Shown here piece after piece: positions 37,607-59,506 of a DNA stretch of 64,000 nucleotides (position 1 is the first letter of the stretch; every line of letters starts with the position of its first letter). The notes under the pieces were generated by a model that did no database searches, was not told the DNA's origin, and saw only the letters and a program-made list of their open reading frames with translations. The DNA is from Bacteroidia bacterium. Lineage in GTDB: Bacteria > Bacteroidota > Bacteroidia > J057. Made by a program: the position numbers and the translations under genes. The DNA is taken from contig JAWPMV010000001.1 of NCBI GenBank assembly GCA_033391075.1, forward strand, positions 7,254,001 through 7,318,000. The letters run 5' to 3'.

Positions 37607-39709
37607 TTATTTCTGCATCATCTCCACTCCCGACCAATTGAGGGGAACGCCTTCTTTGCTCAAAGAAAGGGCGCGAGAGAGGTAGAGCTTACTGGCTTTG
37701 TCTTCGGGATTGAGGGAAAGGACTTCTTTAAAGGCCTGAATAGCCAACACAAAATTCTGTTCATAATAGGCGGTCATCGCTTCCTGAAAAGTTCGGCTGA
37801 GGTTGAGAAATTTCTCCTTTTCTGATGCTGCCAACCAGGATTTGCTCTCATGAACATTTACTGCTTCCTTGCGGCCTTTCACCTGAACTTTACCCAGAAA
37901 CCTCACCAAGTAATCATCAGGCTCTTCTACCCCGGAAAGCGTCTGTTCTGATAGGACAATAGAAGTTCCATAATGCTTGGTCAAGCCCTCCATGCGAGAG
38001 GCTGTATTTACGGTATCGGCCACTACGCTAGCATCCATTCGATCTGCATCTCCGATCACGCCCATCATAAGCTGACCGGTATGTAAGCCGATTCCGATCC
38101 TTAAGGCTTCTTCTCGACTTTCATTGAATTCCTCAAGGGTTTGCAGCATCTCCCGAGCAGCGAGCAAAGCATCTTCTGCTTTTTCCGGGAATAATGCCAT
38201 GATTCCATCCCCATAATACTGATTAACAAAGCCATTATGTTTTTGAATGGCCGGGCCCATTCTGCCTAAATAGGTGTTGAGGAAGTCAAAATTTTCTTTG
38301 GGCGTCATTTTCTCAGATAGGCTTGTATAATCTCTGATATCTGAAAAAAGGACAGTGACTTCCTTTTCCACTCCATCACCCAGATTTACATCCAGCACAT
38401 TGGTATGTCCCAAAGACTTGATAAACTCATGCGGAACAAAGCGTTTGAAGGCTACATTGAGGCTGGAAAGTTTTTCATTGAGGGCTTCCTGAGCGATCCG
38501 TTTTTCTCTTTCTGCATCCACTTTCTCCTGCTCTGTCTTTCTGATTCTATATCCCAGTCCCAATGAAAAGAAGATGATCTCAACGACTATGGTAGAAAGG
38601 AAGATCATAAAGGTATAGGAAAGCTCGAAAATATGTCCGAGCACTGCCAAACTTAACCCCAATACAATTACGCTTCCGGATCCTCCAATGAAATAAAAGG
38701 CCAGGCGATCTTTGGTCCGCGTCAAAGCCACGAAAAAAATGAGGTTGAGGATGACATCCAGCAGCAAAAGGCCAAATTCGATGCCCAATCCTAAGGGGAT
38801 ATTGAAGCTGGTGTAAAAGATCGTTTGTGTGACGATTAGAAATCCACTCTTAATGATAATCACCCAGCTGAGAATTCGGTCCCATTTGGGCAAGAGATTT
38901 TTGAGATCAAGAAAGCTTTTGCCGAAAAGGTAATAGAAGATATTGATGGCCGAAAAAGCCAGATGACCGATGGGTACCAAATAGCGAGGATCTCCAAAAG
39001 AGGGATAAGTCATGGGCCCCACCGCAAAGAGAACAAATGTCCCCACACAAAGCAGATAGAGGGCATAAAAGAGATAGGCCTTAAAACGAACCGTAATAAA
39101 AAGTACCAGATTGTAGAGACACATTATCCCGAAAATTCCCAGAAAAACCAGAATCGTATTTTCCAGGGGAATATGATCATCATCTTTCCACTTAAGCATA
39201 TCATAGAGCTTAAGATTGACCGGTATGGCCTGATGGTCTATTTCCCAAAGTTTCAGGTACAAGGTCTGAGAACTATGTGCTTTGAGGTATAAGGGAAAAT
39301 GAATAAAATCTCCCTCATTTACTTCCTTCATTCTGCCTGGCATATTTCTCCCCGAATGAAATACGCTCTCATTCCCAATGGAATCGATGAGATATAAAGT
39401 AGCCATTCCCATGGCCTCATTAAAGAGCATCCAATCTGTATGCTGATCCCCTGGGTTGGACAGTTCTACTTTCAGCCAATAGGTATAATCCGGAGATAGG
39501 GGAAGGGAGAGTTCGGATAAAGCTTGATAAGAAGAATGATTTTTCGCCTCTTCAATCTCCAGCTTATTCTCTTTGTCCGTGAGAATTTGGACATGCTTAT
39601 TCAGGTATATGACTTCTTCTCCTGCTTTCAATGCGACCTGGGCATGAAGCGACAAGCCTATTGAAAAGAATAGGAAAAAGAGGAGTCCCCAACTGAGTAA
39701 GCGATTCAT
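37607..39709 (-). CDS. 7TMR-DISM receptor adenylate/guanylate cyclase
   Basis: The 700-residue protein has a signal peptide, a periplasmic 7TMR-DISMED2-like beta-sandwich (about 35-165, with YTYWLKVELSNP), seven transmembrane helices (about 185-390), a coiled coil and a class III cyclase domain (about 445-620). The cyclase has both metal aspartates (VLFSDIRDYTS, YYGDGIMALF), and VADTVNTASRMEG with the transition-state Asn and Arg. A TPR-like tail ends in GVPLNWSGVEMM. The product (cAMP or cGMP) is not certain from sequence. Ligand binding outside would control second-messenger synthesis inside. Confidence 0.93.
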   Translation of the reverse strand: MNRLLSWGLLFFLFFSIGLSLHAQVALKAGEEVIYLNKHVQILTDKENKLEIEEAKNHSSYQALSELSLPLSPDYTYWLKVELSNPGDQHTDWMLFNEAMGMATLYLIDSIGNESVFHSGRNMPGRMKEVNEGDFIHFPLYLKAHSSQTLYLKLWEIDHQAIPVNLKLYDMLKWKDDDHIPLENTILVFLGIFGIMCLYNLVLFITVRFKAYLFYALYLLCVGTFVLFAVGPMTYPSFGDPRYLVPIGHLAFSAINIFYYLFGKSFLDLKNLLPKWDRILSWVIIIKSGFLIVTQTIFYTSFNIPLGLGIEFGLLLLDVILNLIFFVALTRTKDRLAFYFIGGSGSVIVLGLSLAVLGHIFELSYTFMIFLSTIVVEIIFFSLGLGYRIRKTEQEKVDAEREKRIAQEALNEKLSSLNVAFKRFVPHEFIKSLGHTNVLDVNLGDGVEKEVTVLFSDIRDYTSLSEKMTPKENFDFLNTYLGRMGPAIQKHNGFVNQYYGDGIMALFPEKAEDALLAAREMLQTLEEFNESREEALRIGIGLHTGQLMMGVIGDADRMDASVVADTVNTASRMEGLTKHYGTSIVLSEQTLSGVEEPDDYLVRFLGKVQVKGRKEAVNVHESKSWLAASEKEKFLNLSRTFQEAMTAYYEQNFVLAIQAFKEVLSLNPEDKASKLYLSRALSLSKEGVPLNWSGVEMMQK

Positions 39710-41743: not shown

Positions 41744-43750
41744 TTAGAGTTTTTCAAGTAGTTCCTGGAAGCGCGGATCATCTAAATATGGCTTTAGGAA
41801 TCCCGAATTCCTAATTAACGAAAACCCTAAATCTTTCTCTCGAATGGCCTTGTCAAGGTATACCCATGCAGAATCAGATTCTCCAAAAGCCATATAAATA
41901 TTGGCAATATCCAGGGATATTAAATTGGGCTTATAGGTTTCCAGAATTTTTTGGGCATCCTCTTCCTTTCCCAAATGGAACTTTGCAGCAGCCAGACCAT
42001 AAGCTGCATAGCCTTTTAAAGAAATCAGCTCTTCAAAAATCGCTTCTGCTTCCTTATACCTTTCCAAATGAATAAGCGCTTCTCCCCGGTGCCGCAAAAT
42101 ACTGGACAGCTTGGGATTATCTTCCAAAACGTCATCCGAAATGGCTAATACTTTTTCAAAATCTCCTGTAACCAGGTTCAAGCGGGAGAATTCAATTTTC
42201 TTATTGAGAGAAAAGGGATCATTTTTCGTCATTAGCTCAACTAAACTCAGGGCTTTTTGGGGATTCCCTGCTAAAAGGCTCAGATATGCTTGTATTTCAT
42301 TAGGCTCAACTATTCCCCTTTCAACTGCAGCTTGATATGTTGATTGTGCGGCTTCTTTATCCCCCTTATACCAAAGGAGATATCGGGCATATTCAAGATA
42401 TGCTGTGGGAAGATTTGGGTTTAATTGGATAGCTTTCTCTAAATGTAGAGGCACTAAGTCATAAAAGGCCTTTCCTCCGCCATAAATCCCTTTAGAAAAA
42501 TAGGCCCTCCCGAGCTCAACCCATGCAGAATAATAAAGGGAATCAATTTCAATCGCCTTCTTATAATATTCAATGGTCTTATCTGCATTTCTGGCTCCTT
42601 GATTTGCTGATTCCAGCCCCTTTAGGTACCATTCATGAGCCAGAACATTAGTTGTTTGAGTAGCGAGCAAGGCCTGGCTTTCTCCAGGCAGTAAGGTGAT
42701 TTGTAAACGGTCAATGATTTTATGAGCAATATCTTCCTGAATGGCAAAGATGTCTCCCGGACGCTTATCATATTGGTCGGTCCAAAGGGTAGATTCGTTT
42801 TGCGCATCTATCAATTGAACATTAATTCGGATTTTATCTTTGGTTCTACGGATAGAGCCATCTAGCAAAACCGTAGCTGACAATTTTGATCCAATCTCTT
42901 TCAGCGATATGGATTGGCCTTTGAAGGAAAAAGAAGAACCCCGACCAAGAACGCTTAAGCCTTTAAGGCTTGCTAAAGCATTAAGGATTTCTTCAGCCGT
43001 TCCATCACAAAAATACTCCTGATCTTTTCCCGGACTTAGGTCTCGAAAGGGGAGGACTGCAATGACCGGCTTTTCTGAAACTTTCTGCCTTGCTTTAGGA
43101 CTATTTGGCTTTGTTGGCCAAAAAATATAGCCAACAATTCCCAGCAATAATAGCAAGGAGGATATACCTAATATTGGAAATCGCTTTACTATGCTCCTAC
43201 TTTTTCCCTTCGCCAACTTTCCTTGCATGTCCCGCTTTCGAGGCACCACAAATCCCTCATTGGCCAGCGCAAAAACCTCCATGGGCTTCTCCACATTTTT
43301 GAACTGAAATTTGCCCAAAGAAGCCATCTCAAATTCGGGATGGGATTTGACATCATGGATCACTCTTTCGGTAACGAGGATCGATCCCGGCACACCCATA
43401 GACTCAACACGGGAAGCCAGATTTACGCCATCTCCATAGATGTTGCCCTCAGTGAAAACAATGTCTCCGATATGGATGCCAATGCGTAAAGGAACTTGAG
43501 GTTCTTCTTTAAGACTTTCCTGAATGGATTTGGCCGCGTGCATAGCTTCGACAGCTGAATTGAAAACTGCCAGACAACCATCGCCTCGAAATTCGAGAAT
43601 TTCGCCATTGTTTGCCGAAGCCTGCGCCTCCATGACTTCACTGAATCGATGCACTTTTTTCAGTCCCTCCTTTTCATTTCGCTGCATCATAGCGGTATAA
43701 CCGACAATGTCAGTAAACATGATGGCAGCAAGACGACGGGATTGGGGCAT
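41744..43750 (-). CDS. Class III nucleotide cyclase with TolB-like and TPR domains (array copy 1)
   Basis: The 668-residue protein has a cyclase module at residues 1-165 with metal ligands Asp14 (FTDIVGYTAMM) and Asp57 (FRGDGCLAVF), Asn110 and Arg114 in GDGVNLASR, and Lys151, so it looks catalytically competent. A transmembrane helix follows (about 192-210). Then comes a TolB-like segment (AVLPFRDLSPGKDQEYFCDG, LGRGSSFSFKG) and about six TPR repeats. With the cyclase N-terminal and no signal peptide, the TPR half should lie across the membrane. It is the most downstream gene of the array. Confidence 0.92.
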   Translation of the reverse strand: MPQSRRLAAIMFTDIVGYTAMMQRNEKEGLKKVHRFSEVMEAQASANNGEILEFRGDGCLAVFNSAVEAMHAAKSIQESLKEEPQVPLRIGIHIGDIVFTEGNIYGDGVNLASRVESMGVPGSILVTERVIHDVKSHPEFEMASLGKFQFKNVEKPMEVFALANEGFVVPRKRDMQGKLAKGKSRSIVKRFPILGISSLLLLLGIVGYIFWPTKPNSPKARQKVSEKPVIAVLPFRDLSPGKDQEYFCDGTAEEILNALASLKGLSVLGRGSSFSFKGQSISLKEIGSKLSATVLLDGSIRRTKDKIRINVQLIDAQNESTLWTDQYDKRPGDIFAIQEDIAHKIIDRLQITLLPGESQALLATQTTNVLAHEWYLKGLESANQGARNADKTIEYYKKAIEIDSLYYSAWVELGRAYFSKGIYGGGKAFYDLVPLHLEKAIQLNPNLPTAYLEYARYLLWYKGDKEAAQSTYQAAVERGIVEPNEIQAYLSLLAGNPQKALSLVELMTKNDPFSLNKKIEFSRLNLVTGDFEKVLAISDDVLEDNPKLSSILRHRGEALIHLERYKEAEAIFEELISLKGYAAYGLAAAKFHLGKEEDAQKILETYKPNLISLDIANIYMAFGESDSAWVYLDKAIREKDLGFSLIRNSGFLKPYLDDPRFQELLEKL

Positions 43751-43824
43751 GGCTTAAAGATAGAAAAATATTGAATCGCTTATCAATTGAGCTACTATAA
43801 GTTTTATCGGGAATAGATAGGATT

Positions 43825-46215
43825 TTATTTCTCTTTTTCCGGGAATAGTTGGTTTAATTCCTCCATCCAGTTTTCGACTAACAATAATTCAGATCGTGTG
43901 TGTTTGGTCTCTACACTTTTTTTCATCAGAAATAATTCTCCATCATCCGTGACCTGGAAGGACCTTCCTGAAATATCCAGGTATTCTCCTTCCCATAGCA
44001 CTCGCGGACTCGCCGGATGGAAACCATTAGTCCAATCTATCGCAACAGAGATCATTTGATTAAAATCAGCGGAGCGGAAAAGGATCTCGTTTCCATGGGA
44101 AACCCAAAGAGGTTCCGAGCCTCCATCGTTGGAAATTTTTATTTTTTGGTTATTTCTGGGGAAGGACTGTACATAGATTTCAGAGGTTCCTTCGGATTCG
44201 TCTGATTCATAAACCACATACTCTCCATTGGGAGAAAAGTCCAGGAAAAACTGATTTTTTGGAGAATTAGAAATAAGGAAAGGTTTTGCCTGTGGGTCAG
44301 ATACATTCAATGCCCATAAATCTAACATACTATTGCCATTCACATCTTCATTTTCAAATGCAATATATTTTTTGTCGGAAGACCAGCTACTTGGGAAGAC
44401 ATAATTGTCTTTTTTGATAAGCGTATCTAGCTTTGTGCCATCTAAGGTTTGATCGATAATTGCCCAATGAGATCCCATTTCTATTGAATAGGAAATGGAC
44501 TTAGCTTGGGGAGATAATATAGTATGGAATTTTGTTTTGGTAAGAAAGGATGGAATTTGTCTTTCCAAATCGTATATCCAGATTTCATGCACCTCACTGA
44601 AAAAAGATTTTTGGAATTGGTAAAGCAGGAGATTTTGGTCCTGTGCAAGTATAAAAGGTAAATAATGGTTAGCTGGCAAAGCCAAATTTCCTACTTCTTC
44701 TCCCTGGCGGTTGATATATACAAAGCTTCCTTTATCTACAGAGCTACCCGAGACATATAACAGATCCCCCTCTCTGGAAACCGCATATTGAGCCCCATTT
44801 CTTACTGACTCAGTACGCACACCCTCTATAACGGGTATGGGAGAGCCGATCAGGCTCAATTGATCAGGGTCAAATCTGGCGGCCATTAATCTCCCCCATT
44901 GTGCAAAAATCAAATGTCCGGAAGTCAAATAACTTGGGCTTGAACCTCCAGATAGAACAGGAGTTGATTTTCCTGAAGTAAGATTGATCGCATAGATTTC
45001 ATTTGCACCATTAGAAAGCAGTATATGGTTGGGATCAGGCAGTGAGGCGAGCCAGAGTTTATTTGCAGAAAAAGGAGAAGTATTAAGCTTGGCGGGAATA
45101 ATTAGCTTTTGGGCTTGCTCTTCATGTGCAGAGATGCGGACAAGTTGTTGGCCTTCATAATCTACAAAAACGATTTCATCATTTTCCAGCCAAATGCCTG
45201 AATAGGGATCTGTTACATCAGTAATTGCTACAGGCTGTGTTCCTGAAAGGGCTACTTTGTACAGCTTCTCATTTGCATAAAATCCAACCCAATCACCATC
45301 TGTCGAAAAAAAGGGAAAATACGCACCTTCTGTGCCTGGGATAAGCTGGGTTTCGTAGGAATTCAGCGGTCGTAGTCCCAATTGGGTTCCGTCAGGAGTT
45401 TGAGCAACATAGACGATAATCTTCCCATCAGCAGAGATATCGAATGCACGCTGCCCAATGCTATGATGCACTGAGCCAATGAGTGCCAATGAGGCTTTTT
45501 CAGGAAGGGAAATAGTAGTACGCCTAAGAGGCTTTTCTACAATCCTTCTTGTATCAGGCTGAATAAACCAACCCATAAATCCTCCTAAGAGAATTGACGA
45601 AATCAATAAGCTTATGAGAAAGGTATAAGAAAGCAAAAAGTGGCCTTTCTTGTCGTGGGAAGGGCTTTTGCCTGTTTTGAATTTTCCTGTTAGCTCTGAG
45701 CGCTTTGGAACTGGAAAACCCTTATTAGCCACTGCAAATACGCTTACGGCTTCCTCTACATTTTTAAATTCAAAGGAACCCAGGGATAGCAGCTTAAATT
45801 CTGGCTGGTTCCGTATTTTACTATATATCTCATGGGAGAGCAGAATCGTCCCTGCTATTCCCATTGATTCGATACGAGAAGCTACATTCACACCATCACC
45901 GACGACTTTACCCCCTTCAAAAAAAATCTCCCCTACATGCAGACCTATACGTAAGGGTACGCTTGGCTCCTGTTTCAATTTTTCCTGAATCTGCATAGCA
46001 CAGCTTGCTGCCGCAGATGCGCTATTGAAGATACTCAAGCTTCCATCTCCATAATACTGTAGCACCTCTCCCTGTTTTATCTTCACTTCTTCTTCGAGGA
46101 CACTCTGGTGTCTGTTGAGTGAGACAACTGCCTTTGATTCGTCTTGCTGCATCATAGCGGTATAGCCGACAATATCAGTAAACATGATGGCGGCAAGACG
46201 GCGGGATTTGGGCAT
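43825..46215 (-). CDS. Class III nucleotide cyclase with C-terminal beta-propeller (array copy 2)
   Basis: The 796-residue protein starts at the ATG at 46215 (MPKSRRLAAIMFTD), matching its paralogues; an open extension to 46284 is not used. The cyclase keeps Asp14, Asp57 and GDGVNVASR, but is clearly diverged from its neighbours (YYGDGSLSIF instead of FRGDGCLAVF). After a transmembrane helix near residues 212-232, the rest is a PD40/TolB-like beta-propeller (AFDISADGKIIVYVAQ, YFPFFSTDGDWVGFY, LDFSPNGEYVVYESD), not TPRs. This C-terminal half resembles the sensor part of some bacterial serine/threonine kinases. It replaces the TPR input of the other members. Confidence 0.9.
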   Translation of the reverse strand: MPKSRRLAAIMFTDIVGYTAMMQQDESKAVVSLNRHQSVLEEEVKIKQGEVLQYYGDGSLSIFNSASAAASCAMQIQEKLKQEPSVPLRIGLHVGEIFFEGGKVVGDGVNVASRIESMGIAGTILLSHEIYSKIRNQPEFKLLSLGSFEFKNVEEAVSVFAVANKGFPVPKRSELTGKFKTGKSPSHDKKGHFLLSYTFLISLLISSILLGGFMGWFIQPDTRRIVEKPLRRTTISLPEKASLALIGSVHHSIGQRAFDISADGKIIVYVAQTPDGTQLGLRPLNSYETQLIPGTEGAYFPFFSTDGDWVGFYANEKLYKVALSGTQPVAITDVTDPYSGIWLENDEIVFVDYEGQQLVRISAHEEQAQKLIIPAKLNTSPFSANKLWLASLPDPNHILLSNGANEIYAINLTSGKSTPVLSGGSSPSYLTSGHLIFAQWGRLMAARFDPDQLSLIGSPIPVIEGVRTESVRNGAQYAVSREGDLLYVSGSSVDKGSFVYINRQGEEVGNLALPANHYLPFILAQDQNLLLYQFQKSFFSEVHEIWIYDLERQIPSFLTKTKFHTILSPQAKSISYSIEMGSHWAIIDQTLDGTKLDTLIKKDNYVFPSSWSSDKKYIAFENEDVNGNSMLDLWALNVSDPQAKPFLISNSPKNQFFLDFSPNGEYVVYESDESEGTSEIYVQSFPRNNQKIKISNDGGSEPLWVSHGNEILFRSADFNQMISVAIDWTNGFHPASPRVLWEGEYLDISGRSFQVTDDGELFLMKKSVETKHTRSELLLVENWMEELNQLFPEKEK

Positions 46216-46234
46216 GGATGGGTTTTGTTTGAAG

Positions 46235-48322
46235 TTACGGAAATCCCACGCGATCAAGCAAATTCTTATAGTGGGGATCGTCATGCAAAGGCTTGGTCAA
46301 AGGGTCCATCTTTAGCCAAAGCATTTCGACTTCATGATCCTCGTAGGATTTTTCTAGCCATTCGAAGGCAGTATTCGAATCTCCAATATTTGCATAAATC
46401 AATCCAAGAAAAAATGCAGGACTGCCAACCTTTGTTGTATTCCAATTTTCCTGAAGCTGTTTGATGATCAATTCTGTCTCCTTTCTTTGCCCAACTTTGT
46501 AGTGTGCTATTGCCTTTTCAGCTAACATATAGGGAGTGTTCATATTTACTCGCATCTGTTCTAGTCCATTTTCGAGCACCTGAATAGCTTCCCCGTATTG
46601 ATGCAGTTCTAAGTATATTTTTGCCAGGAATTTATAGGTGTCATATTCAAATATGTTCAAGGATTGAGCATACTTTAATTGTTGGATTGCCTTTTGAAAA
46701 TCTCTTTTGTAAAAAAGACTCATTCCTTTCATTACTTCAAGATGTGGATCAAGTGGGTTGATAATTGAAAGCTCGGCCAGAAGTGTATCTACTTTTCCTA
46801 ATTGGCCAGCATACATATACAACAAACTCCTTGACGCAAAATAATCTTCTTCCTGATGTTTTTTTGCCTTTTCAAGAGCCTTTTCAGCTCCTGCAAAGTC
46901 CCAGTCCAACCATAAGCTTGAATAGGCCTGGTATACATAGGCATCAGAATTATTGGTGTCGAGGGAAATTGCTTTTTGCAGGTAAGGAGATGCTTTTGCT
47001 TTGGCAATACCGGGCGTTAAATCTCCCAATGCGGTTCCCCTACTCAAATAGTAATAACCTAGTTCGCTATAAATTGTAGAGAGAGAGGGAGCCAGTTTAA
47101 GTGCCGTTTCCAATAATTCACTCGCGTGCTCGAATTCTGAAAAATTCCCATTGGTCAAAATCTTGCGTGCTTTCAAAAAGAGGAGATAGGCTTCCGGATT
47201 GAGTTCAATTTCTCGTTTTAAAACCTCCGATTCCTCTGAACTAAGCTTTGCATCAAGTTTTCGGGAGATTTCGTGAGCAACCTCTTGTTGGACTGCAAAG
47301 ATATCCTCCATGCTCCGATTGAACTCTTCCGCCCAAAGGAGGGAACCACTTTCAGCATGTACCAATTGAGTCGTAATCCTTACTTTATCTTTATCCCTTC
47401 TTACACTGCCTTCCAGAATATGGGCCACTCCGAGCTCTCTGGCAATTTCAGTCAAGCTTTTTGCACTCTTTCGGAAAGAAAAGGAGGAAGTCCGGGCAAT
47501 TACCTTCAAATCGCTGATCCTGGCCAGATTGGTCAGGATATCCTCACTGATTCCATCACTGAAGTATTCCTGGGTGGAATCATTGCTCATATTTCTGAAG
47601 GGAAGGACGGCTATAGACTTTTCTATATGGGAAACAGTTTCCCCTTCATTTTTATCCCCAAGATTCAGAAAATTGACCAGTCCCCAAATCAGCAAGCCTC
47701 CAATTACTAGTCCTAATGCTGATTTCAAAATCGGCATACTCGTCTTGGAATAAGAAATCTGATCAGTCGGATTGTCAATAGCGTTAGCCTTGCCTTTCAT
47801 TTGCTCAGCTTTAGGCACCACAAATCCCTCATTCGCCAAAGCAAAAACCTCCATGGGCTTCTCCACATTCTTGAACTGAAATTTCCCCAAAGAAGCCATT
47901 TCAAATTCGGGATGAGACTTCACATCATGGATCACTCTTTCCGTCACGAGGATCGAACCCGGCACGCCCATGGACTCGACACGTGAAGCCAGATTTACGC
48001 CATCTCCGTAGATATTGCCATCGGTAAATACTATATCTCCGATATGGATGCCAATGCGTAAGGGTACATTGGGTTCTTCTTTAAGACTTTCCTGAATGGA
48101 TTTTGCCGCATGCATGGCCTCGACTGCGGAATTGAAAACTGCGAGACAACCATCCCCTCGAAATTCGAGGATTTCACCATTATTTGCTGAAGCATTTGCC
48201 TCCATCACTTCGCTAAAGCGATGCACTTTTTTCAGCCCTTCCTTTTCATTTCGCTGCATCATGGCGGTATAGCCGGCAATGTCGGTAAACATGATGGCAG
48301 CTAGACGTCGGGATTGGGGCAT
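46235..48322 (-). CDS. Class III nucleotide cyclase with TolB-like and TPR domains (array copy 3)
   Basis: The 695-residue protein has the same cyclase module as copy 1 with only a few substitutions over residues 1-170 (Asp14, Asp57, Asn110, Arg114 kept). A transmembrane helix lies near 200-218. The TolB-like segment reads SIAVLPFRNMSNDSTQEYFS and RTSSFSFRKSAK, followed by TPR units (LAPSLSTIYSELGYYYLSRG and others) and a C-terminal DPHYKNLLDRVGFP motif typical of this family. The C-terminal half is only distantly similar to that of copy 1. Confidence 0.92.
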   Translation of the reverse strand: MPQSRRLAAIMFTDIAGYTAMMQRNEKEGLKKVHRFSEVMEANASANNGEILEFRGDGCLAVFNSAVEAMHAAKSIQESLKEEPNVPLRIGIHIGDIVFTDGNIYGDGVNLASRVESMGVPGSILVTERVIHDVKSHPEFEMASLGKFQFKNVEKPMEVFALANEGFVVPKAEQMKGKANAIDNPTDQISYSKTSMPILKSALGLVIGGLLIWGLVNFLNLGDKNEGETVSHIEKSIAVLPFRNMSNDSTQEYFSDGISEDILTNLARISDLKVIARTSSFSFRKSAKSLTEIARELGVAHILEGSVRRDKDKVRITTQLVHAESGSLLWAEEFNRSMEDIFAVQQEVAHEISRKLDAKLSSEESEVLKREIELNPEAYLLFLKARKILTNGNFSEFEHASELLETALKLAPSLSTIYSELGYYYLSRGTALGDLTPGIAKAKASPYLQKAISLDTNNSDAYVYQAYSSLWLDWDFAGAEKALEKAKKHQEEDYFASRSLLYMYAGQLGKVDTLLAELSIINPLDPHLEVMKGMSLFYKRDFQKAIQQLKYAQSLNIFEYDTYKFLAKIYLELHQYGEAIQVLENGLEQMRVNMNTPYMLAEKAIAHYKVGQRKETELIIKQLQENWNTTKVGSPAFFLGLIYANIGDSNTAFEWLEKSYEDHEVEMLWLKMDPLTKPLHDDPHYKNLLDRVGFP

Positions 48323-48368
48323 AGATGGGTGAAGTATCTAAAACGGTATTCTTGGCATTGTTAAATTA

Positions 48369-50408
48369 CTATTTACTGACTTTCTCAACAAATGGGCCCC
48401 ATCGGGGATCTTTATGCATAAAACTAAAGGCTAATTCAAATGGGGCGAAAATGATGCCCGGGTCATATTGCTTAAAAGATCGTTCTAACCATTCAAATGT
48501 TTTTTCTACATCTTTGCGATAGCCATAGACCTGTGCAATTTGATAAGCTAAGGAAGAGGAAGAACCTTCGATAAGCTCCTCAAGATAAGTGTCAGCAGCT
48601 TCTATATCTCTTTTTTCCCAGGCAACAATGGATAGCGCACATTTTCTCGCACCCTCAAATTTCTCCTTTCGGGCAATAACTTCCGCCTCCTCCAATTTTC
48701 CTTGCTCGACCAGGCAGATGGCTAAAGCATAGTTCAAATAACCTGCTTTTGGTTGGAGCATTAACCACTTCCTGAAGGAATCTTCTGCAAGATCAAACCG
48801 ATGTGCGATATTATTTCCCCAGGCTTTGTTGGCAATGCTTATCCAGGATAGTGGATCGAGTTCCTCAGCTTTATCCAGTAAAGCCAGGCCTTCTTCGAAT
48901 TCATGATTGAAGCATTTTGCAAGCCCTGTGATACTTATTGCATTGGCATCACCTGGAGCTAATTCTATAGATTTTAGTGCATAAAACAGCGCAGAATCAC
49001 TTTTGCCTAGCATTTGTATGTAAGTATTAGCCAGGCTTGCGTATGCATATCCTAAGTTTGGACCGAGTTTTATCCCCTTAAGCGCATGTGTTTTTGCGAG
49101 CTCATGTAACTTTTTAAAGTCTCTTATGCCTGTAGGAGAATTGCCTCTTCTGGCAAAATCTCTGTCGATGTGTCCCAAGAGAATCCAGGCAGGCGCATAG
49201 GAAGAATCACGTTCCAGGCTCCTTAGCACAAGTTCCCGGGCTTTACTGGCATTACTCTCTGTATCAAACTGATGTTTGGCTTGCAAAAAAAGGCGGTAGG
49301 CATCTGGAGCCGTTTTTTCGACATTCCATTTATTGGCTTCAATGAGGTTAAGCTTTAGTGATTCCATCACTTCCCGGGCAATATGTTCTTGTATACCGAA
49401 TACATCCTCCAAGGGCTCTTCCCAATTTTCGGCCCATATGGATTTATCCAATTTTGCCTCAATAAGCTGAACAGATATTTTGACCCTGCCTCCGTACTCT
49501 TTGACACTGCCTTCTAAGATATGGTCAACGCCCAGTTTGTTCGCTATCGTAGATAAATCTACCTCTTGTTTTTTGAAGCTAAAGGAGGAAGAGCGAGAGC
49601 TTACCTTAAGTTCTGATTCCTTGCTCAAGAGATTTATAACTTCTTCTGCCATTCCATCTCCCAGAAAAGCTTGATCCTGTTTAGGACTCAAATCCAGAAA
49701 AGGCATGACGGCTATAGAAGGAGTTTTCGTGGTATCAGGAAGTACCTCTTCACTTCCTTTCCAGTAAATATTCATCCATATTCCTCCAGCTATCAATATG
49801 CCAATAAAGCCGGATAAGATGCCTCGAATTAAACGGTGTTTGCCTTGAGTAGCATTTTCTGTTAGGCGTGTTCCTTTACCCGCTAGCTCATCGGGTTTGG
49901 GTACAATGAATCCCTCATTGGCCAATGCAAAAACCTCCATGGGCTTCTCTACATTCTTGAACTGAAATTTGCCCAAAGAAGCCATTTCAAATTCGGGATG
50001 AGACTTTACATCATGGATAACTCTTTCCGTAACCAAAATCGAACCTGGAACCCCCATAGACTCGACACGCGAAGCCAGATTTACCCCATCTCCGTAGATA
50101 TTGCCATCGGTGAAAACGATATCTCCGATATGGATGCCAATGCGTAAAGGAACTTGTGGCTCTTTTTGCAAGTTTTCTTGAATAGCTTTTGCGGCATGCA
50201 TGGCTTCTACGGCAGAATTGAAAACTGCCAGACAACCATCCCCTCGGAATTCGAGGATTTCGCCATTGTTGGAAGCTGCCTTTGCCTCCATCACTTCGCT
50301 AAAGCGATGCACTTTTGCCAGTCCCTCCTTTTCGTTTCGTTGCATCATGGCAGTATAGCCGGCGATGTCGGCAAACATGATAGCGGCGAGACGGCGGGAT
50401 TGGGGCAT
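48369..50408 (-). CDS. Class III nucleotide cyclase with TolB-like and TPR domains (array copy 4)
   Basis: The 679-residue protein again has the standard module (MFADIAGYTAMM, Asp14; FRGDGCLAVF, Asp57; GDGVNLASR). A transmembrane helix near 195-215 (ILSGFIGILIAGGIW) is followed by VMPFLDLSPKQDQAFLGDG and SSRSSSFSFKKQEVD, then TPR units and the tail DPRWGPFVEKVSK. This C-terminal half is closely similar to that of the partial gene at 62547, so the two are recent duplicates. Separation from copy 3 is 46 bp and from copy 5 is 92 bp. Confidence 0.92.
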   Translation of the reverse strand: MPQSRRLAAIMFADIAGYTAMMQRNEKEGLAKVHRFSEVMEAKAASNNGEILEFRGDGCLAVFNSAVEAMHAAKAIQENLQKEPQVPLRIGIHIGDIVFTDGNIYGDGVNLASRVESMGVPGSILVTERVIHDVKSHPEFEMASLGKFQFKNVEKPMEVFALANEGFIVPKPDELAGKGTRLTENATQGKHRLIRGILSGFIGILIAGGIWMNIYWKGSEEVLPDTTKTPSIAVMPFLDLSPKQDQAFLGDGMAEEVINLLSKESELKVSSRSSSFSFKKQEVDLSTIANKLGVDHILEGSVKEYGGRVKISVQLIEAKLDKSIWAENWEEPLEDVFGIQEHIAREVMESLKLNLIEANKWNVEKTAPDAYRLFLQAKHQFDTESNASKARELVLRSLERDSSYAPAWILLGHIDRDFARRGNSPTGIRDFKKLHELAKTHALKGIKLGPNLGYAYASLANTYIQMLGKSDSALFYALKSIELAPGDANAISITGLAKCFNHEFEEGLALLDKAEELDPLSWISIANKAWGNNIAHRFDLAEDSFRKWLMLQPKAGYLNYALAICLVEQGKLEEAEVIARKEKFEGARKCALSIVAWEKRDIEAADTYLEELIEGSSSSLAYQIAQVYGYRKDVEKTFEWLERSFKQYDPGIIFAPFELAFSFMHKDPRWGPFVEKVSK

Positions 50409-50500
50409 GTTGGTTAGTTCTAATTCAAGTTAGTTTTTTCAGTTTATGCCCCCAAATTTTCCTTGAAAATGGAGGAGTAGCCTCTTATTTCATGCTGGAA

Positions 50501-52579
50501 TTACGATCGAATTAATTCCAATATAGCCTCTACATCAGCATCATTCAGCTGTCCAAAAGGAGATTGGCGAAGGTAAGCTTCAAAGCGAGGGTCATCCTGG
50601 AGAATGTCAAAGACAGGATCAATCAGCAAATGAATATCTGTTGCGGGGAGTTTGTTTATAAGTATTGCAAACATGCGGTCAATATCATGATTTGCACGTG
50701 CAAGCAAAAGATCTTCACTCGGAAAGGAATTTCCTTCCACAAGGTACTTCCTCAGCTGAGGAACATTCTCCTGAGTACAGTAACACTTAAATAACATAAA
50801 CAAAGAAGACTGAGTTGAGTCAATTTGCCAATTCTTATAGTATTCAGCTAATTCATCACACTTCCCCTGAGCAGAAAGAATCACTCTTCCATGCCATAAA
50901 ATGGTCTTGTTATTGGGAAAGAGTTTTAAGGCTAGATCAAATTGCTCTTTTGCCAATTCATACTCTTGATTTTGGGCCAACATCCGGATATATACACCAT
51001 GAATGACCGGAGAAAAAGGATTTGTTTCCAATGCTTTCCGAATCAAAAACATAGCTTCCTCTTCTTTTCGAAGCCCGTGAAGCTGTATCGCAGCTCGTTG
51101 AAGGGTGTATCCATCCTGTGGATCGATTTCCAGAGCCCTCTTGAAATATGAAAGGGCTTTATTGAAATGACCTCTTTGCCTGGAAACAGAGCCCATGATT
51201 TCATAGACCCGTGCAATATTTGGATTAAGCTGAAGCACTTCTTGAGACAGCTCGAAAGCTCTATCATAATACTTCAAGGAATCCGGCACAAAATTGTAGT
51301 TTCTTAGCAGATATATAATATTTGCTAACTCGGCTTTTGCATGTGCGAAATGAGAATCTAGTTCAAGGGCCTCTTGAAAGAGTTTTTCTCCAGCTTTCAG
51401 ACTTTCAAAACTTCGGTCTTGTATCACCAGCCTTCCTCTGAGGTATAATTGATATGCTTCAAGATTATCAGTGAGTTGTTCATTCAGTTTCTGTTCCTCT
51501 TCTGGTGAAATCTTGTTTTGAAGCTCTCTTGCAATATTGCGTGCAACTTCCTTTTGGATAGCAAATACATCCTTTAGCTCAAAATCATATTGCTCTGCCC
51601 ATACGTTTACATCTTCTTTAGCATGAACCAATTGAGTGGAAATACGAATCTGATCGCCCTGTTTTCTAATACTGCCACGTACCACATAATTGACATGAAG
51701 TTCCTCTGCAATTTCTCCGAGGTTTTTGTCGCTGCCTTTGTATCTCATGGCAGAAGTCTGGGAAATGACTTTCAGACCACTGAGCTTGGAGAGTTGGATC
51801 AAGATATCTTCCGTAATTCCATCACTGAAATAGTCTGTATCTGCTTCTTGGCTTTTATTGCTGAAAGGAAGAACCGCGATGGATTTTTCCAGCTGTTCTA
51901 TTTCCACATCCATTTGCTTTGTGGAGCGAGAGAAGATTCCCCAGCCAGTAAGGCTCAGAAGTAGCAATCCTATTGCCAAGACACCCATTACTTTGGGCAA
52001 TTTGTGCTTGGGAGTGCTCGAAAATGAAAGATCAACTTTCTCTCCTTTACCCTGCATTTGCTCTGGGCCGGGCACCACAAAACCCTCATTCGCCAGGGCA
52101 AATACCTCCATGGGCTTTTCTACATTCTTGAACTGAAAATTCCCCAAAGAAGTCATCTCAAATTCGGGATGCGATTTTACATCGTGGATGACTCGTTCGG
52201 TAACCAGTATCGAACCCGGCACACCCATAGACTCTACACGTGAAGCCAGGTTTACACCATCTCCGTAGATATTGCCATCGGTGAAAACGATATCTCCGAT
52301 ATGAATACCGATGCGTAGAGGTACTTTGGGTTCCTCTTTAAGACTTTCCTGTATGGATTTGGCCGCATGCATGGCTTCTACCGCGGACTTGAAAACGGCC
52401 AGACAGCCATCTCCTCGAAATTCGAGGATTTCGCCATTGTTGGAAGCTGCTGCTGCTTCCATCACTTCGCTAAAGCGATGCACTTTTGCCAGTCCCTCCT
52501 TTTCGTTTCGTTGCATCATGGCAGTATAGCCGGCAATGTCGGCAAACATGATAGCGGCGAGACGGCGGGATTGGGGCAT
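50501..52579 (-). CDS. Class III nucleotide cyclase with TolB-like and TPR domains (array copy 5)
   Basis: The 692-residue protein shares the module with few changes (FADIAGYTAMM; a lysine in FKSAVEAMH where others have FNSAVEAMH). A transmembrane helix lies near 198-215. The TolB-like segment is SIAVLPFSNKSQEADTDYFS with RYKGSDKNLGEIAEEL, then TPRs including GHFNKALSYFKRALEIDPQD. The C-terminus (FGQLNDADVEAILELIRS) lacks the usual short family tail and is an extra helix. Confidence 0.92.
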   Translation of the reverse strand: MPQSRRLAAIMFADIAGYTAMMQRNEKEGLAKVHRFSEVMEAAAASNNGEILEFRGDGCLAVFKSAVEAMHAAKSIQESLKEEPKVPLRIGIHIGDIVFTDGNIYGDGVNLASRVESMGVPGSILVTERVIHDVKSHPEFEMTSLGNFQFKNVEKPMEVFALANEGFVVPGPEQMQGKGEKVDLSFSSTPKHKLPKVMGVLAIGLLLLSLTGWGIFSRSTKQMDVEIEQLEKSIAVLPFSNKSQEADTDYFSDGITEDILIQLSKLSGLKVISQTSAMRYKGSDKNLGEIAEELHVNYVVRGSIRKQGDQIRISTQLVHAKEDVNVWAEQYDFELKDVFAIQKEVARNIARELQNKISPEEEQKLNEQLTDNLEAYQLYLRGRLVIQDRSFESLKAGEKLFQEALELDSHFAHAKAELANIIYLLRNYNFVPDSLKYYDRAFELSQEVLQLNPNIARVYEIMGSVSRQRGHFNKALSYFKRALEIDPQDGYTLQRAAIQLHGLRKEEEAMFLIRKALETNPFSPVIHGVYIRMLAQNQEYELAKEQFDLALKLFPNNKTILWHGRVILSAQGKCDELAEYYKNWQIDSTQSSLFMLFKCYCTQENVPQLRKYLVEGNSFPSEDLLLARANHDIDRMFAILINKLPATDIHLLIDPVFDILQDDPRFEAYLRQSPFGQLNDADVEAILELIRS

Positions 52580-52602
52580 GGAGGAAAGATATAAAATACT
52601 TT

Positions 52603-54678
52603 TTAATTAGGGCTTTTTAATCTTTCTAGGAGTTGCTGGAATTCTGGATCTTTTCTATAAGGATCAAAAAACATTTCTTTTCGCAAGACGGACTCTAAAG
52701 TCGCCATCAATCCATATTCAGACTTTGTTAAGGATTGAGGTGTTTTTATATATTGAGATACGGCAAGATCGAGGTAGTGGAAGAGACTGTCCTCCTGATT
52801 TAATCCAGCATAAATGACAGCCAAATCTTTATAATAAGTCAATCTGGGTATCGCCGGGAGTTCTTCTATTTTCTTCAAGGCCTTTTCTCTTTGTCCCGTC
52901 TTTCCATAACAATAGCCTAATGGAGCGTGAAGCCAGGGAAGTAAGTAGATAGATTCAAAAAAGGAAATAGCGGTTTCATAATCTCCTTCAGCCTGGGCAA
53001 TCATTCCTTTTAGTTGGGTGATAGATATTTGATCTTCCGGGAATAGTTGAATCACTTTGGAAAGCTGTTTTCTGGCTTCTTCAAATTGCCTGTTTTTGAT
53101 TAATAGAGTTATATAGTTGTATTGATACACATATAATAAAGGATCCAACTCTGCTGCTTTCTTTCGTAATTGCAAGGACATTTCATAATCCCCAATACCA
53201 TCAAAATAGAAGGCAGCTGCATGATTAATACTTGCATCATTCGGTGCAAGCCTTAGTGTTTTCTCAGTCACTTCTTTTTTCTTCTCTAAATCTCCATTCA
53301 TATGAAAAATCCCCCCAAGTACAGAAAGGGCATTCACATTTTGCTTGTCCAGATCAAGTGCTTTCTTTGCCATTTGTTCGGCCAATGCAAACTTCTTTTC
53401 TCTTTCTGAAAAATTGGTTTCTGAAATCTTTGTCGCCTGTATAAAATAAACCGTTGAGAGGTGGGAATAGGCGTTGGTGAAACTACTGTCCAGGGCAATA
53501 GAAGATTGTAAGAGTTTTATACTTCGCTCCAATTCCTCTGGTCTACGATTATCGGCTGCTCTTTTCCCTTTTATATAAAGTTGATAGGCTTCTGGGTTGG
53601 CAGTTGCAGAAGTTTTTAATTCTGAATTTTCTGAAGGAGTAAGATTGATTTGCAATGCCTGCACAATTTGTTGAGCCACTTCGCTTTGCACCTTAAAAAT
53701 ATCAGCTAAATCCCTATCGTAATTCTCCGACCACAATTGTTGATCTTCTTCAACATGTATAAGACGTACATTGATGCGAGCTTTACCTTCATACATTCTG
53801 ACACTTCCCTCTACTATGTGTTCAACCCCCAGTTCTTCAGCTATTTCCGGAATCTTTTTATCTGATTCTTTATAATGCATGATAGAGGTTCTCGATATTA
53901 CCTTTAGCTCCTTAAGTTTAGATAAATAAGTGAGGATATCCTCAGTCATGCCATCAGAAAACATATCGCCCTCGGAATCCTTATTTATATTGACAAAGGG
54001 GAGAACTGCCAATGATACTTCCAGTTTAATATCAGATGTATCTTTTACCTCTTTTGATCCCCATATCCCTATCCCGCTTGCACCTAAAAGGGCCAATAAG
54101 GCAATAAATATTGCTGAGCGGAATTTGGTTTTTTTCTCCGCTAATTTGCCGCTTAGCTGATTCCTGGGAGGCACCACAAAACCCTCATTTGCCAAGGCGA
54201 ACACCTCCATAGGCTTCTCCACATTCTTAAACTGAAATTTGCCCAGGGAAGCCGTCTCAAATTCCGGATGACTTTTTATGTCATGAATCACACGCTCTGT
54301 AAATAAAATCGAACCTGGCACGCCCATAGATTCGACACGAGAGGCCAGATTTACGCCATCTCCGTAGATGTTGCCATCGGTGAAAACGATATCTCCGATA
54401 TGGATACCGATGCGTAAAGGAACCTGAGGCTCTTTTTGCAAGTTTTCTTGTATAGCTTTTGCGGCGTGCATGGCTTCTACGGCAGAATTGAAAACTGCCA
54501 GACAGCCATCCCCTCGAAATTCGAGGATTTCGCCGTGATTAGAAGCTGCTGCTGCTTCCATCACTTCGCTAAAGCGATGTACTCTCTTTAAACCCTCCTT
54601 TTCATTTCGCTGCATCGTAGCGGTATATCCGACTATGTCAGTAAACATGATGGCAGCTAGACGGCGGGATTGGGGCAT
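52603..54678 (-). CDS. Class III nucleotide cyclase with TolB-like and TPR domains (array copy 6)
   Basis: The 691-residue protein is the most upstream of the contiguous array. The module has FTDIVGYTATMQRN, so the usual second Met is Thr; Asp14, Asp57 and GDGVNLASR remain. A transmembrane helix near 188-205 precedes SLAVLPFVNINKDSEGDMFS, ISRTSIMHYKESDKK and TPR units, with the tail DPEFQQLLERLKSPN. Its promoter should lie in the 75-bp gap to the histidine kinase gene, or the array may be read through from that gene. Confidence 0.92.
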   Translation of the reverse strand: MPQSRRLAAIMFTDIVGYTATMQRNEKEGLKRVHRFSEVMEAAAASNHGEILEFRGDGCLAVFNSAVEAMHAAKAIQENLQKEPQVPLRIGIHIGDIVFTDGNIYGDGVNLASRVESMGVPGSILFTERVIHDIKSHPEFETASLGKFQFKNVEKPMEVFALANEGFVVPPRNQLSGKLAEKKTKFRSAIFIALLALLGASGIGIWGSKEVKDTSDIKLEVSLAVLPFVNINKDSEGDMFSDGMTEDILTYLSKLKELKVISRTSIMHYKESDKKIPEIAEELGVEHIVEGSVRMYEGKARINVRLIHVEEDQQLWSENYDRDLADIFKVQSEVAQQIVQALQINLTPSENSELKTSATANPEAYQLYIKGKRAADNRRPEELERSIKLLQSSIALDSSFTNAYSHLSTVYFIQATKISETNFSEREKKFALAEQMAKKALDLDKQNVNALSVLGGIFHMNGDLEKKKEVTEKTLRLAPNDASINHAAAFYFDGIGDYEMSLQLRKKAAELDPLLYVYQYNYITLLIKNRQFEEARKQLSKVIQLFPEDQISITQLKGMIAQAEGDYETAISFFESIYLLPWLHAPLGYCYGKTGQREKALKKIEELPAIPRLTYYKDLAVIYAGLNQEDSLFHYLDLAVSQYIKTPQSLTKSEYGLMATLESVLRKEMFFDPYRKDPEFQQLLERLKSPN

Positions 54679-54753: not shown

Positions 54754-55722
54754 TTAGGAGAACGGAATCGAGAAGAAAAAACTACTCCCTTTTCCTATTT
54801 CACTCTCGACCCAGATTCGCCCTTTGTGATGCTCCACAATTTGCTTGCAAATCGGCAAACCGAGTCCGGTGCCTTTGGGTTTGCCAGTCTGATTGTCTTC
54901 GACTTGTTTGAAACGTTCGAAGACTTTGTCGAGCTGATTGGCGGGGATGCCGGAGCCCGTGTCTGTAAGCTGGAATCGAATATTCTTTCCCTGACCTTCC
55001 GAGGAGGAGGGAAGAGTTACTCTGAGCCTAACCTGACCCGCATCTGTAAATTTTACAGCATTAGAGATGAGGTTGATAAGGACTTGTAGCAAGCGATTCT
55101 GGTCGCCGGTTATCTGAGGTAGATCATGAGGAATTTCTTTAATTAATTTCAGCGAAGGTTTTTGTATAAATAGGGAAGAAGTGGCATTGGTGGCTCTTTC
55201 AATAAGGTCGGAAGGTTGGAATTCGTCCATATTCCAATCCATTTTACCGGACTCGATCTTGGCGAGGTCGAGCAATTCATTGATCAGGGAGGTTAGCCTG
55301 CCTCCTTCAGAGATGATGACTTCATTATTTTTGAGGATTTTTCTCAGGATGTTATGTCGTTTGGGGTCCTCTGTCAAGAAGGGAAGTAGGCGCTTTTCTA
55401 TGCGTTTTTGGTTGATTTTAGCAAATCCTATGATAGAAGTAAGGGGAGTGCGCAACTCATGATTGACAGTTGAAAGGAATACAGATTTTGCCTTATTGGC
55501 TTCTTCAACTGCCTTACGCTTTTCGTCTAATTCATGAATGGTTTCCTCCAGCAAAATGGCAGTAGTTCGCTTGACTCTTTCGGTACGCTGTAGTTTAAAA
55601 TTGGCAATGGTTAGTTCTTTATCAACAGCTTTTAGCGATTTCTCAAGTTCCTGTCGTTCTTCGGGCTCCAGGTTTTCCTGCTTTTCAATCCATTCCAGGA
55701 TTTGTTTGAGGTGCGGATTCAT
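54754..55722 (-). CDS. Cytoplasmic histidine kinase
   Basis: The 322-residue protein has an N-terminal coiled coil (about 15-80), a HisKA domain with His88 (STVNHELRTPLTSIIGFAKI) and an ATPase domain with LLQVLINLISNAVKF, TDTGSGIPANQ and GTGLGLPICKQIV. There is no sensor domain or membrane segment; input probably comes from a partner. It starts one base after the FIST gene stop, so the FIST protein is the likely sensor, as FIST domains are elsewhere linked to signalling kinases. Receiver proteins are encoded at 61.6-62.3 kb. Confidence 0.92.
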   Translation of the reverse strand: MNPHLKQILEWIEKQENLEPEERQELEKSLKAVDKELTIANFKLQRTERVKRTTAILLEETIHELDEKRKAVEEANKAKSVFLSTVNHELRTPLTSIIGFAKINQKRIEKRLLPFLTEDPKRHNILRKILKNNEVIISEGGRLTSLINELLDLAKIESGKMDWNMDEFQPSDLIERATNATSSLFIQKPSLKLIKEIPHDLPQITGDQNRLLQVLINLISNAVKFTDAGQVRLRVTLPSSSEGQGKNIRFQLTDTGSGIPANQLDKVFERFKQVEDNQTGKPKGTGLGLPICKQIVEHHKGRIWVESEIGKGSSFFFSIPFS

Positions 55723-55723
55723 A

Positions 55724-56878
55724 TTACTCTTTTTCTTTTAGGGCAAGCCAGCTACAGGTAACACCATGAAAAGCTGCATGTCCTCCTGTTGGGGTTCCAA
55801 ATTCCCCGCAGGAGAAAAAGCCAATCAAAGGTAAATCCCAAACGGCCTGAATACCCAGAATTTCCTCTTCTACAAGAGGTCCCAGGTTTGCCAACCTTCC
55901 AATGCATGAAAATACCATGAGAGCCTCTGCTTCAGGAAGGGATTTCTTTTGGGCTTCACGAGCACTTTCTATCACAGCCTGAACGATATCAAAGTCGGGG
56001 GGAAGGGAAAATCGAACTTGAGAACCTTGTGGGACATGTCCCCCACATTGAACTGCTCCAGTTTCACGATTGAATAAAAGAGGAGGATTCATAAGCGGAT
56101 CCCCATTTGCCTGGATAACCTGCAAAGGATAGGTGACGCCAATCTGGTGAAAGATGTCTTTTTGGTCTTCCATATTGACTTCCAATCCCGTAAATTTTCT
56201 AAGTACGTCCAGGGCCGGTTGGTCATCTATAGTGTAAATCCAGCTCCCATCGCTTTGGGTTACGGTCTTGGGTGTTCCCACTGCCCTCCAGCCTGATACT
56301 GCCAAGTCTGCAATTTCAATCCTATCCATATCCAGAATCAGACAAATGATCCCTCTTTGGCTTTCCTGTTTTTCGGTAAATACCAGGCAATCATCCTGTA
56401 TAGGTTTGCCTCCAGCAATTCCTCCAATCAGTCGGGCATTTTTTCCTGCAACAGAAGTAATACCTTCTACCAGGGCTTCACCCGGAGTATCTTGAAAAGA
56501 GGCTGCTGAAAGAATATATGCAGGCTGGTCGAAAAAATTCTGGCCTGCTTTTGCAATTAGTTGTGTTTTGGCTATGGTTTGTTCGAATGATTCGCTCTCC
56601 ACCTCTTCCAATACGATACGAAAGTATTCGGGATTTAAATCCATAAGCATCACAACCACCTGCTCATCTTTTATTCCTTCTTCTGAGAACATTCCCGGAG
56701 GATAGGCCCCAAAAATGGCGATCTCTCTTTCCCTCAATACCTGAACGATTTCCTTATGATCGATTTGAGATGGCATAAGGACCATCGCAAGACTTGGACG
56801 AAAGCCATCGTCCATGGCAATTGAAAGTGCCAATTTTAATTCATTTGAGTCCTTCCCAGAAATTGATTTAGCCTTCAT
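55724..56878 (-). CDS. FIST sensor-domain protein (copy 1)
   Basis: The 384-residue soluble protein covers FIST_N (about 20-215: MAVLMP-like strand, AIFGAYPPG, VVVMLMDLNPEYFRIVLE, GKNARLIGGIAGGK) and FIST_C (about 225-370: DDQPALDVLRKFTG, FNRETGAVQCGG, LMVFSCIGRLANLG, LIGFFSCGEFG). FIST domains are thought to bind small ligands such as amino acids. The gene is translationally linked to the downstream kinase. Two more FIST genes follow upstream. Confidence 0.9.
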   Translation of the reverse strand: MKAKSISGKDSNELKLALSIAMDDGFRPSLAMVLMPSQIDHKEIVQVLREREIAIFGAYPPGMFSEEGIKDEQVVVMLMDLNPEYFRIVLEEVESESFEQTIAKTQLIAKAGQNFFDQPAYILSAASFQDTPGEALVEGITSVAGKNARLIGGIAGGKPIQDDCLVFTEKQESQRGIICLILDMDRIEIADLAVSGWRAVGTPKTVTQSDGSWIYTIDDQPALDVLRKFTGLEVNMEDQKDIFHQIGVTYPLQVIQANGDPLMNPPLLFNRETGAVQCGGHVPQGSQVRFSLPPDFDIVQAVIESAREAQKKSLPEAEALMVFSCIGRLANLGPLVEEEILGIQAVWDLPLIGFFSCGEFGTPTGGHAAFHGVTCSWLALKEKE

Positions 56879-56898
56879 AAGGGGTATATATTCTTGTC

Positions 56899-59466: not shown

Positions 59467-59506
59467 TATATGCAAGATTTTGTTTGTTATTTCTCTTTTA
59501 GCTTCT

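Follow-up and report, generated by a model that had tools for sequence, protein, structure and literature searches.

Two neighboring arrays of class III cyclases in a Bacteroidia bacterium probably evolve as separate catalytic and sensor cassettes

How can a row of tandem genes be nearly uniform over one part of its length and share little beyond a general plan over the rest? The question is raised by six co-directional genes of a Bacteroidia bacterium, here called g1 to g6 (array 1), which occupy positions 41744-54678 (minus strand) of the 64,000-nucleotide (nt) stretch that was analyzed; this stretch, the window, corresponds to 7254001-7318000 of an 8.16-Mb contig (JAWPMV010000001.1) in a 9.49-Mb genome of 5 contigs (99% complete, estimated contamination of 2.53%). 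The six open reading frames (ORFs) lie at 41744-43750, 43825-46284, 46235-48322, 48369-50408, 50501-52579, and 52603-54678; for g2, the likely start is an internal ATG at 46215, after 23 codons (MPKSRR), and the gene was taken as 43825-46215. All six carry a PF00211 cyclase domain at the N-terminal end (45.5 to 56 bits, versus a Pfam gathering cutoff of 21.9). We refer to codons 1 to ~165-170 as the front half or head and to the remainder of each gene as the back half or sensor. A first-pass annotation, made from the sequence alone, had read the locus as a duplicated cyclase with a frozen catalytic half and a sensor half diversified in place. The answer that we favor, and consider quite probable, is that these receptor-like class III cyclases are made of two separately evolving cassettes, by exchange plus homogenization.

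As that annotation had stated, five of the six genes do keep nearly the same residues 1 to 170: g1, g3, g4, g5, and g6 are 90 to 98% identical at the protein level up to codon ~170 and 26 to 39% identical from there on (10 pairs). At the nucleotide level, in 20-codon bins over the same 10 pairs, identity runs at 70 to 100% to codon 160, at 57 to 74% over codons 161 to 180, and at 15 to 75% beyond. The predicted change point near codon 170 is thus seen in identity plotted along the genes, where it falls after the cyclase domain and before the membrane helix; equal divergence throughout was not observed. The simplest explanation, which we nevertheless regard as very unlikely, would be ordinary constraint, i.e., that whole genes were duplicated and the sensor simply changed faster than the catalytic domain. 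Catalytic domains do tend to be the better conserved parts of proteins, and a four-gene array at another locus (L055; front halves 67 to 79% and back halves 24 to 35% identical, no conversion tracts) can be read in this way. However, silent sites differ between the halves as well, with front halves showing 0.025 to 0.074 nonsynonymous (dN) and 0.65 to 1.30 synonymous (dS) substitutions per site and back halves showing a dN of 0.77 to 1.04 and a dS that is either 2.4 to 3.1 or not computable; identity at 4-fold sites is 0.51 to 0.66 in front versus 0.18 to 0.35 in back. Since silent sites are also closer in the front, the halves differ in time since common ancestry and not in constraint alone.

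A baseline for such comparisons was drawn from the best 80 of 562 family loci from an alignment scan, on which all family-locus counts given here rest. Rows with a front half shorter than 160 residues were dropped, and back-half pairs were required to have a high-scoring segment pair of at least 250 amino acids (aa). This left 120 family members, drawn from the present genome and others, and 2,716 between-locus pairs in which the back half could be aligned; these pairs are not independent, because one contig was apparently counted twice (L063/r51) and some loci share a genome. In the 1,936 between-locus pairs with back halves 26 to 38% identical, front-half identity had a median of 49 to 50% and a maximum of 69%. 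Given that none of these comparable pairs reaches 70% in the front, and given the silent sites, constraint alone is insufficient for the 90 to 98% seen in array 1. Just outside the baseline range, gene 1 of locus L058 and L062 are 26% identical in back and 84% identical in front, so a pairing of similar heads with dissimilar sensors is found between two other genomes too.

The back halves turned out to have relatives close by. When the g1 head was used as a query against its own genome, 36 matches were obtained, 20 of which had at least 41% identity, and four of the matches form a second tandem array, h1 to h4 (array 2), at 6548-8578, 8645-10879, 10946-13174, and 13340-15397 of contig stretch L031. 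The window edge cuts h1, leaving the 3' part of the gene, its back half, inside (62547-64000, minus strand; ORF 62547-63983 with TPR matches, corresponding to L031 ORF 6548-8578), with the head just past the edge (L031 8078-8578). Approximately 8 kb, holding a kinase, three FIST genes, and a GAF cyclase, lie between the arrays, which share the same 8.16-Mb contig. The array-2 heads are 89 to 96% identical to each other and 50 to 53% identical to array-1 heads. The back half of g4 (48369-49898, minus strand), on the other hand, is 70% identical to that of h1 over 509 aa, with only 50% identity between their front halves, whereas g4 and g3 are 93 to 94% identical in front and 26% in back. NG86 estimates tell the same story, with a dN of 0.45 in front and 0.18 in back for g4-h1 and of 0.06 in front and 0.87 in back for h1-h2. 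Similarly, the h4 back half has its best match in the g3 back half (46235-47812, minus strand; 35% identity). The g4/h1 pair and pairs at loci L094 and L058 thus show an order opposite to that expected from constraint. Plain duplication of one whole array was considered separately and was rejected, since heads do not track sensors and the order of the shared sensors along transcription differs (g4 before g3 in array 1, h4 before h1 in array 2).

The conflict between the halves is equally clear in trees, which is a further point against constraint. Both trees comprised 32 rows, i.e., 14 from the own genome and r52 plus 18 (back half of at least 280 aa) from six array loci; g2, r48 to r51, d39 to d41, d43, d44, and d46 were excluded. 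In the front-half tree, g1, g3, g4, g5, and g6 group together (support, 100/99), as do h1 to h4 (100/100), and the groupings {g4,h1} (approximately unbiased [AU] test, p 4e-44) and {g3,h4} (p 8.5e-4) are rejected. In the back-half tree, precisely these two groupings are recovered ({g4,h1}, 100/100; {g3,h4}, 97/96), and the maximum-likelihood tree rejects both arrays as clades (AU p 6e-44 and 9e-4), a clade of the five array-1 back halves being rejected at p 6e-44. In each array, therefore, the heads form one tight clade and the sensors do not, and g4- and g3-type sensors are found in both arrays, each time behind the head type of the array in question. The claim that the back halves are diversified duplicates of one another fails here, as two of the five group with array-2 back halves: the sensors have been exchanged, not just diverged, and the earlier view, right about homogenized heads, was incomplete on the sensors.

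Breakpoints were located with MaxChi, which, like the GENECONV-like permutation test used below, was run with our own scripts and not with GENECONV or GARD themselves. All 13 MaxChi triplets were at the floor of 2000 permutations, with breakpoints at codons 157 to 160 in h1 (two triplets), 161 to 169 in g4 (four), 178 to 180 in h4 (two), and 170 to 175 in g3 (two). At the amino acid level, breakpoints in h1, g4, h4, and g3 fell at 157 to 160, 169 to 174, 193 to 194, and 168 to 171, respectively. Most breakpoints thus lie between codons 157 and 194, where the head ends and the linker and helix follow.

While the trees speak of sensors, homogenization of the heads should leave traces of its own. 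In the permutation test, which used polymorphic sites and a correction for the number of pairs, shared runs were found in 2 of the 10 array-1 pairs (g5-g6, 0 of 5000 permutations; g4-g5, P 0.0006) and in 3 of the 6 array-2 pairs (h1-h4, 0.0008; h2-h4, 0.0012; h3-h4, 0.024), as expected under concerted evolution. With silent sites only, g4-g5 (0.049), h2-h4 (0.0016), and h3-h4 (0.020) stayed below 0.05, and g5-g6 was not significant (0.21). The candidate conversion tract that g4 shares with g5 (gene nt 47 to 117) lies at 50292-50362, with its partner at 52463-52533 in g5; the one shared by g5 and g6 (gene nt 105 to 136) lies at 52444-52475 in g5 and at 54543-54574 in g6 (all on the minus strand). 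Own copies are also closer to each other than to a relative, another mark of concerted evolution, with array-1 heads 90 to 97% identical among themselves and at most 74% identical to r48, the nearest head from another genome (one relative). Purifying selection or gene conversion on the N-terminal module, as proposed in the first-pass annotation, is in part borne out: the heads are more alike than constraint explains and tracts do occur, but constraint alone does not suffice.

Other footprints were found outside the coding heads. In array 2, head homology continues through a 66-nt spacer upstream of h1, h2, and h3, and the h4 stop codon is followed by an in-frame relic, 68 nt long, of the end of an h2/h3-type gene (L031 13241-13308), identical to h3 at 57 of 68 positions (best of 4,000 shuffled comparisons, 32); behind the relic lies a 66-nt spacer identical at 66 of 66 positions to the h3-h2 spacer. 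The relic was left behind either when a back half was replaced in place or when a middle copy was deleted. A comparison of the spacers before g1 to g6 revealed no homology beyond ~17 nt before the ATG and no shared promoters. These features bear on an alternative that we rate as improbable, namely, that a head was copied along each array, that pre-existing sensors were joined to it once, and that only mutation followed, with no continuing conversion. Such a head-first spread would fit the array-1 spacers, the spacer and head common to h1, h2, and h3 while the h1 sensor is foreign, the relic (if read as back-half replacement in place), and the like heads without conversion tracts at loci L055 and L106. 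It is contradicted by the shared runs described above for g4-g5, g5-g6, h2-h4, h1-h4, and h3-h4, which exceed permutations, and by the whole-gene pair h2/h3, in which the heads are closer at silent sites than their own sensors (dS of 0.10 in front versus 0.39 in back).

Several observations nevertheless weigh against two cassettes shaped by exchange and homogenization. Eight of the 10 array-1 pairs and three of the six array-2 pairs have no tract, conversion tracts were also sought in the L055 and L106 arrays and none were found, and the front-half dS of 0.65 to 1.30 means that exchange was not recent at most array-1 sites. Three of the 13 MaxChi triplets point elsewhere (codons 140 to 141 in h1, 140 to 143 in h4, and 289 to 290 in g3), and one of nine amino acid triplets is weak (L058 gene 2, P 0.013). 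The g3-h4 sensor link, at 35% back-half identity, is weaker than that of g4-h1, and the relic would be equally expected from a simple middle-copy deletion. Finally, a search of 22 genomes of the same taxonomic order, including the window's own, with no other member of the same genus among them, found no orthologous array in relatives. An assembly or binning artifact, or the independent horizontal acquisition of two arrays with coincidentally shared sensors, we find hardly credible: although some contamination is estimated for this genome and L094 and L058 come from metagenome bins, both arrays sit less than 10 kb apart on one 8.16-Mb contig of a 5-contig, 99% complete genome, and the copies have diverged, unlike collapsed repeats.

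In the reading that we prefer, the N-terminal catalytic head (codons 1 to ~165) would be the first cassette and the membrane helix plus TolB-like/TPR sensor the second. Recombination between tandem copies, by nonreciprocal conversion or unequal crossing-over, would keep the heads of one array alike, and an occasional crossover or insertion at the linker would put a new sensor behind a resident head. Within an array, a variety of envelope signals would feed a single kind of cyclase activity, and sensors could be transferred to heads of another kind. The parts (class III receptor cyclases, domain shuffling, and gene conversion) are known, but we have not found their combination described for bacteria; no account of bacterial tandem arrays that combine uniform heads with exchanged sensors was found in a search of open-access text, which is weak evidence of absence.

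The first-pass annotation proposed that many inputs feed one second messenger, but each array has a substrate-residue pair of its own. It also had all catalytic residues in place, which is true of the metal-binding and transition-state positions but not of the substrate pair, which departs from the textbook (E/N in five genes). The two metal-binding Asp residues and the transition-state Asn and Arg correspond to positions D14, D57, N110, and R114, of which the first three are kept in 120/120 family rows and R114 in 119/120. At the two positions that select the substrate, canonical adenylate cyclases have Lys and Asp (or Thr) and canonical guanylate cyclases have Glu and Cys, Glu at the first position being guanylate type. 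The adenylate pair is found in none of g1 to g6 or h1 to h4, which have E/N (g1, g3, g4, g5, and g6), Q/K (g2), or Q/H (h1 to h4); nor is the guanylate pair, array 1 having Glu first but Asn, not Cys, second. K and D are present in 17 of the 120 rows and in 3MR7 from Silicibacter pomeroyi, the nearest solved head (profile E value, 1e-34; Foldseek rank 1), which in this respect differs from both arrays. Gln occupies the first substrate position in 89 of the 120 heads, with nine different second partners, which hints that substrate selection in this family has been little explored. The title of structure 5d0g names a KDA-to-EGY mutant of Ma1120.

In all four swaps, the residue pair changes with the head: g4 has E/N versus Q/H in h1, g3 has E/N versus Q/H in h4, L094 gene 1 has Q/S versus K/D in gene 2, and L058 gene 2 has N/N versus K/D in gene 3. 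Judging from these residues, exchange may leave a sensor connected to a different product. A bolder proposal, which we put forward only tentatively and consider rather doubtful, is that the arrays serve as a recombination workshop in which the same envelope sensor is placed behind different heads, letting the lineage switch cyclic nucleotide with a uniform output per array. Two neighboring arrays that share sensors but not heads allow sensor shuffling to be caught within one chromosome, and most breakpoints lie in a linker that should tolerate fusion. The natural matched pairs (same sensor with different heads, same head with different sensors) bear on whether the choice of nucleotide is independent of the choice of input, as well as on the products of the E/N, Q/H, and Q/K heads; should those products differ, a fixed sensor would have had its second messenger changed by recombination and not by point mutation.

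Nine of the best 80 loci hold at least two family ORFs. Like heads with unlike sensors are seen in L055 (all four genes, described above), L093 (75% in front, 24% in back), and three of the four genes of L106 (64 to 74% and 32 to 35%). The reverse, like sensors with unlike heads, is found for genes 1 and 2 of L094 (front, 41%; back, 78 to 79%) and genes 2 and 3 of L058 (front, 41%; back, 56 to 57%), so sensor swaps have taken place in these two other Bacteroidota loci as well. Locus L084 shows neither pattern, and L064, L115, and L126 contain partial or oppositely placed copies that are little informative. A contig from the same family of genomes (G004) joins an array-1-type head (73 to 74%) to an h2/h3-type sensor (29%). 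Including the window's own genome, the head was detected at an E value of ≤1e-50 in 10 of 395 genomes in the class census and at ≤1e-35 in 62 of 395 in the phylum census. Arrays such as these look uncommon, because the 61 other phylum genomes with a strong head match have only one to three each, which may be an undercount, as at most nine candidates were scored per genome. A scan of named genomes with the g1 head as a single-protein query gave no confirmed relative, and plasmid records contained no near match to the locus (C4).

The individual parts of array 1 agree with this division. The heads of g1 (43241-43750), g3 (47813-48322), g4 (49899-50408), g5 (52070-52579), and g6 (54169-54678), all on the minus strand, are of the array-1 type by PF00211 and identity, that of g1 being 91 to 97% identical to the other four. 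The back halves of g1 (41744-43240; best family match, 30%), g5 (50501-52069; sister to the g6 back half), and g6 (52603-54168) consist of a hydrophobic helix followed by TolB-like and TPR regions in domain scans. An AlphaFold2 model of g3 (mean predicted local distance difference test score [pLDDT], 89.8; predicted template-modeling score [pTM], 0.67) has a cyclase-like fold at residues 4 to 162, a low-confidence stretch at 186 to 196, a helix at 196 to 219, an alpha/beta domain at 236 to 355, and a helical-repeat arm at 362 to 692, the parts behind the cyclase making up the back half that is sister to that of h4. The TolB-like plus TPR plan announced for the back halves does not hold for g2, the back half of which (43825-45705) has a hydrophobic helix and a PD40/TolB-type beta-propeller and gave no blastp match among the family back halves (TPR sensors).

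A strongly hydrophobic segment starts 18 to 27 residues into the back half in all ten array genes, which means that the helix moves with the sensor. Relatives including d38, d42, d45, and the two swapped pairs (L094 and L058) do without the segment, so the design can dispense with a membrane anchor. For the array genes, the head is inferred to be cytosolic and the sensor to be periplasmic; class III heads must dimerize. Among 12 matches of the g3 back half in the own genome, one has an AraC-type helix-turn-helix and no cyclase head, which makes the sensor portable. The genome encodes 32 cyclic nucleotide (cNMP)-binding domains over the Pfam cutoff, so candidate receptors exist, none of them linked to array genes.

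Among the matches listed for the 80 loci, 39 members of the N-terminal-head TolB-like/TPR family align to the g3 back half over at least 350 residues. CadC/HilA regulators combine a DNA-binding head with a TolB-like/TPR back half; the back halves of g1, g3, g5, and g6 match the CadC-like model NF007540 and those of g4, g5, and g6 the HilA/EilA-like model NF009037, all below the curated cutoffs, but the output here is a cyclase. TIGR04510, a putative peptide modification system cyclase, was not matched at its cutoff of 400 bits (best of nine proteins, 64.5). The closest parallel is the receptor cyclases of trypanosomatids (ESAG4/GRESAG4, rac), described as lying in tandem arrays (PMC1855330, PMC4413820) and as joining a variable sensing part and one membrane helix to a conserved class III head that is 83 to 87% identical (PMC6027212), with gene conversion reported for a Trypanosoma brucei adenylate cyclase tandem array (PMC1855330). 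To call a conserved catalytic part with a variable sensing part unusual for signaling enzymes, as had been done, was therefore too strong. Those cyclases are eukaryotic, with a different sensor that comes first (extracellular, N-terminal) and the head last (C-terminal), whereas here the head is N-terminal by Pfam and AlphaFold2; in the parts of these reports available to us, a sensor swap onto another head type is not among the features found. Polymorphic toxin systems are likewise reported to change a C-terminal cassette by recombination behind another protein part (PMC3482391), but the variable part here is a sensor, not an effector, and Pfam and NCBIfam scans suggested no toxin or immunity function.

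Two other class III cyclases, of 7TMR-DISM and GAF architectures, flank array 1 at window positions 37607-39709 and 59835-61523, and with these the region is a cyclase cluster. Upstream of array 1, in the same direction, 54754-59475 holds a histidine kinase and three FIST-domain genes; the kinase (54754-55722) and two of the FIST-domain genes (54754-58041, minus strand) begin 75 nt before g6 and, from that spacing, perhaps share one transcript with it. Elsewhere in the genome, an ORF with a TolB-like/TPR sensor and a C-terminal AraC-type helix-turn-helix (L040 8939-10744) adjoins a cyclase of the same family. The g2 head (45706-46215, minus strand) is divergent (52 to 54% identical to the five array-1 heads), with DNA-level closeness to other heads in codons 1 to 20 only, where nucleotide identity to array-1 heads is 83 to 91% despite the divergent head and propeller back half. 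Over codons 6 to 23, identity is 87% versus 54% for the rest of the head, and codons for the same residue are identical in 63% of 70 cases there versus 38% of 348 elsewhere; since the protein motif in this stretch is conserved, a conversion patch at the g2 5' end is only suggested. The same 54 nt (codons 6 to 23) are 87% identical between g1, g3, g4, g5, and g6 and h1 to h4, versus 55% for the rest of the heads, which constraint on a conserved protein motif may explain.

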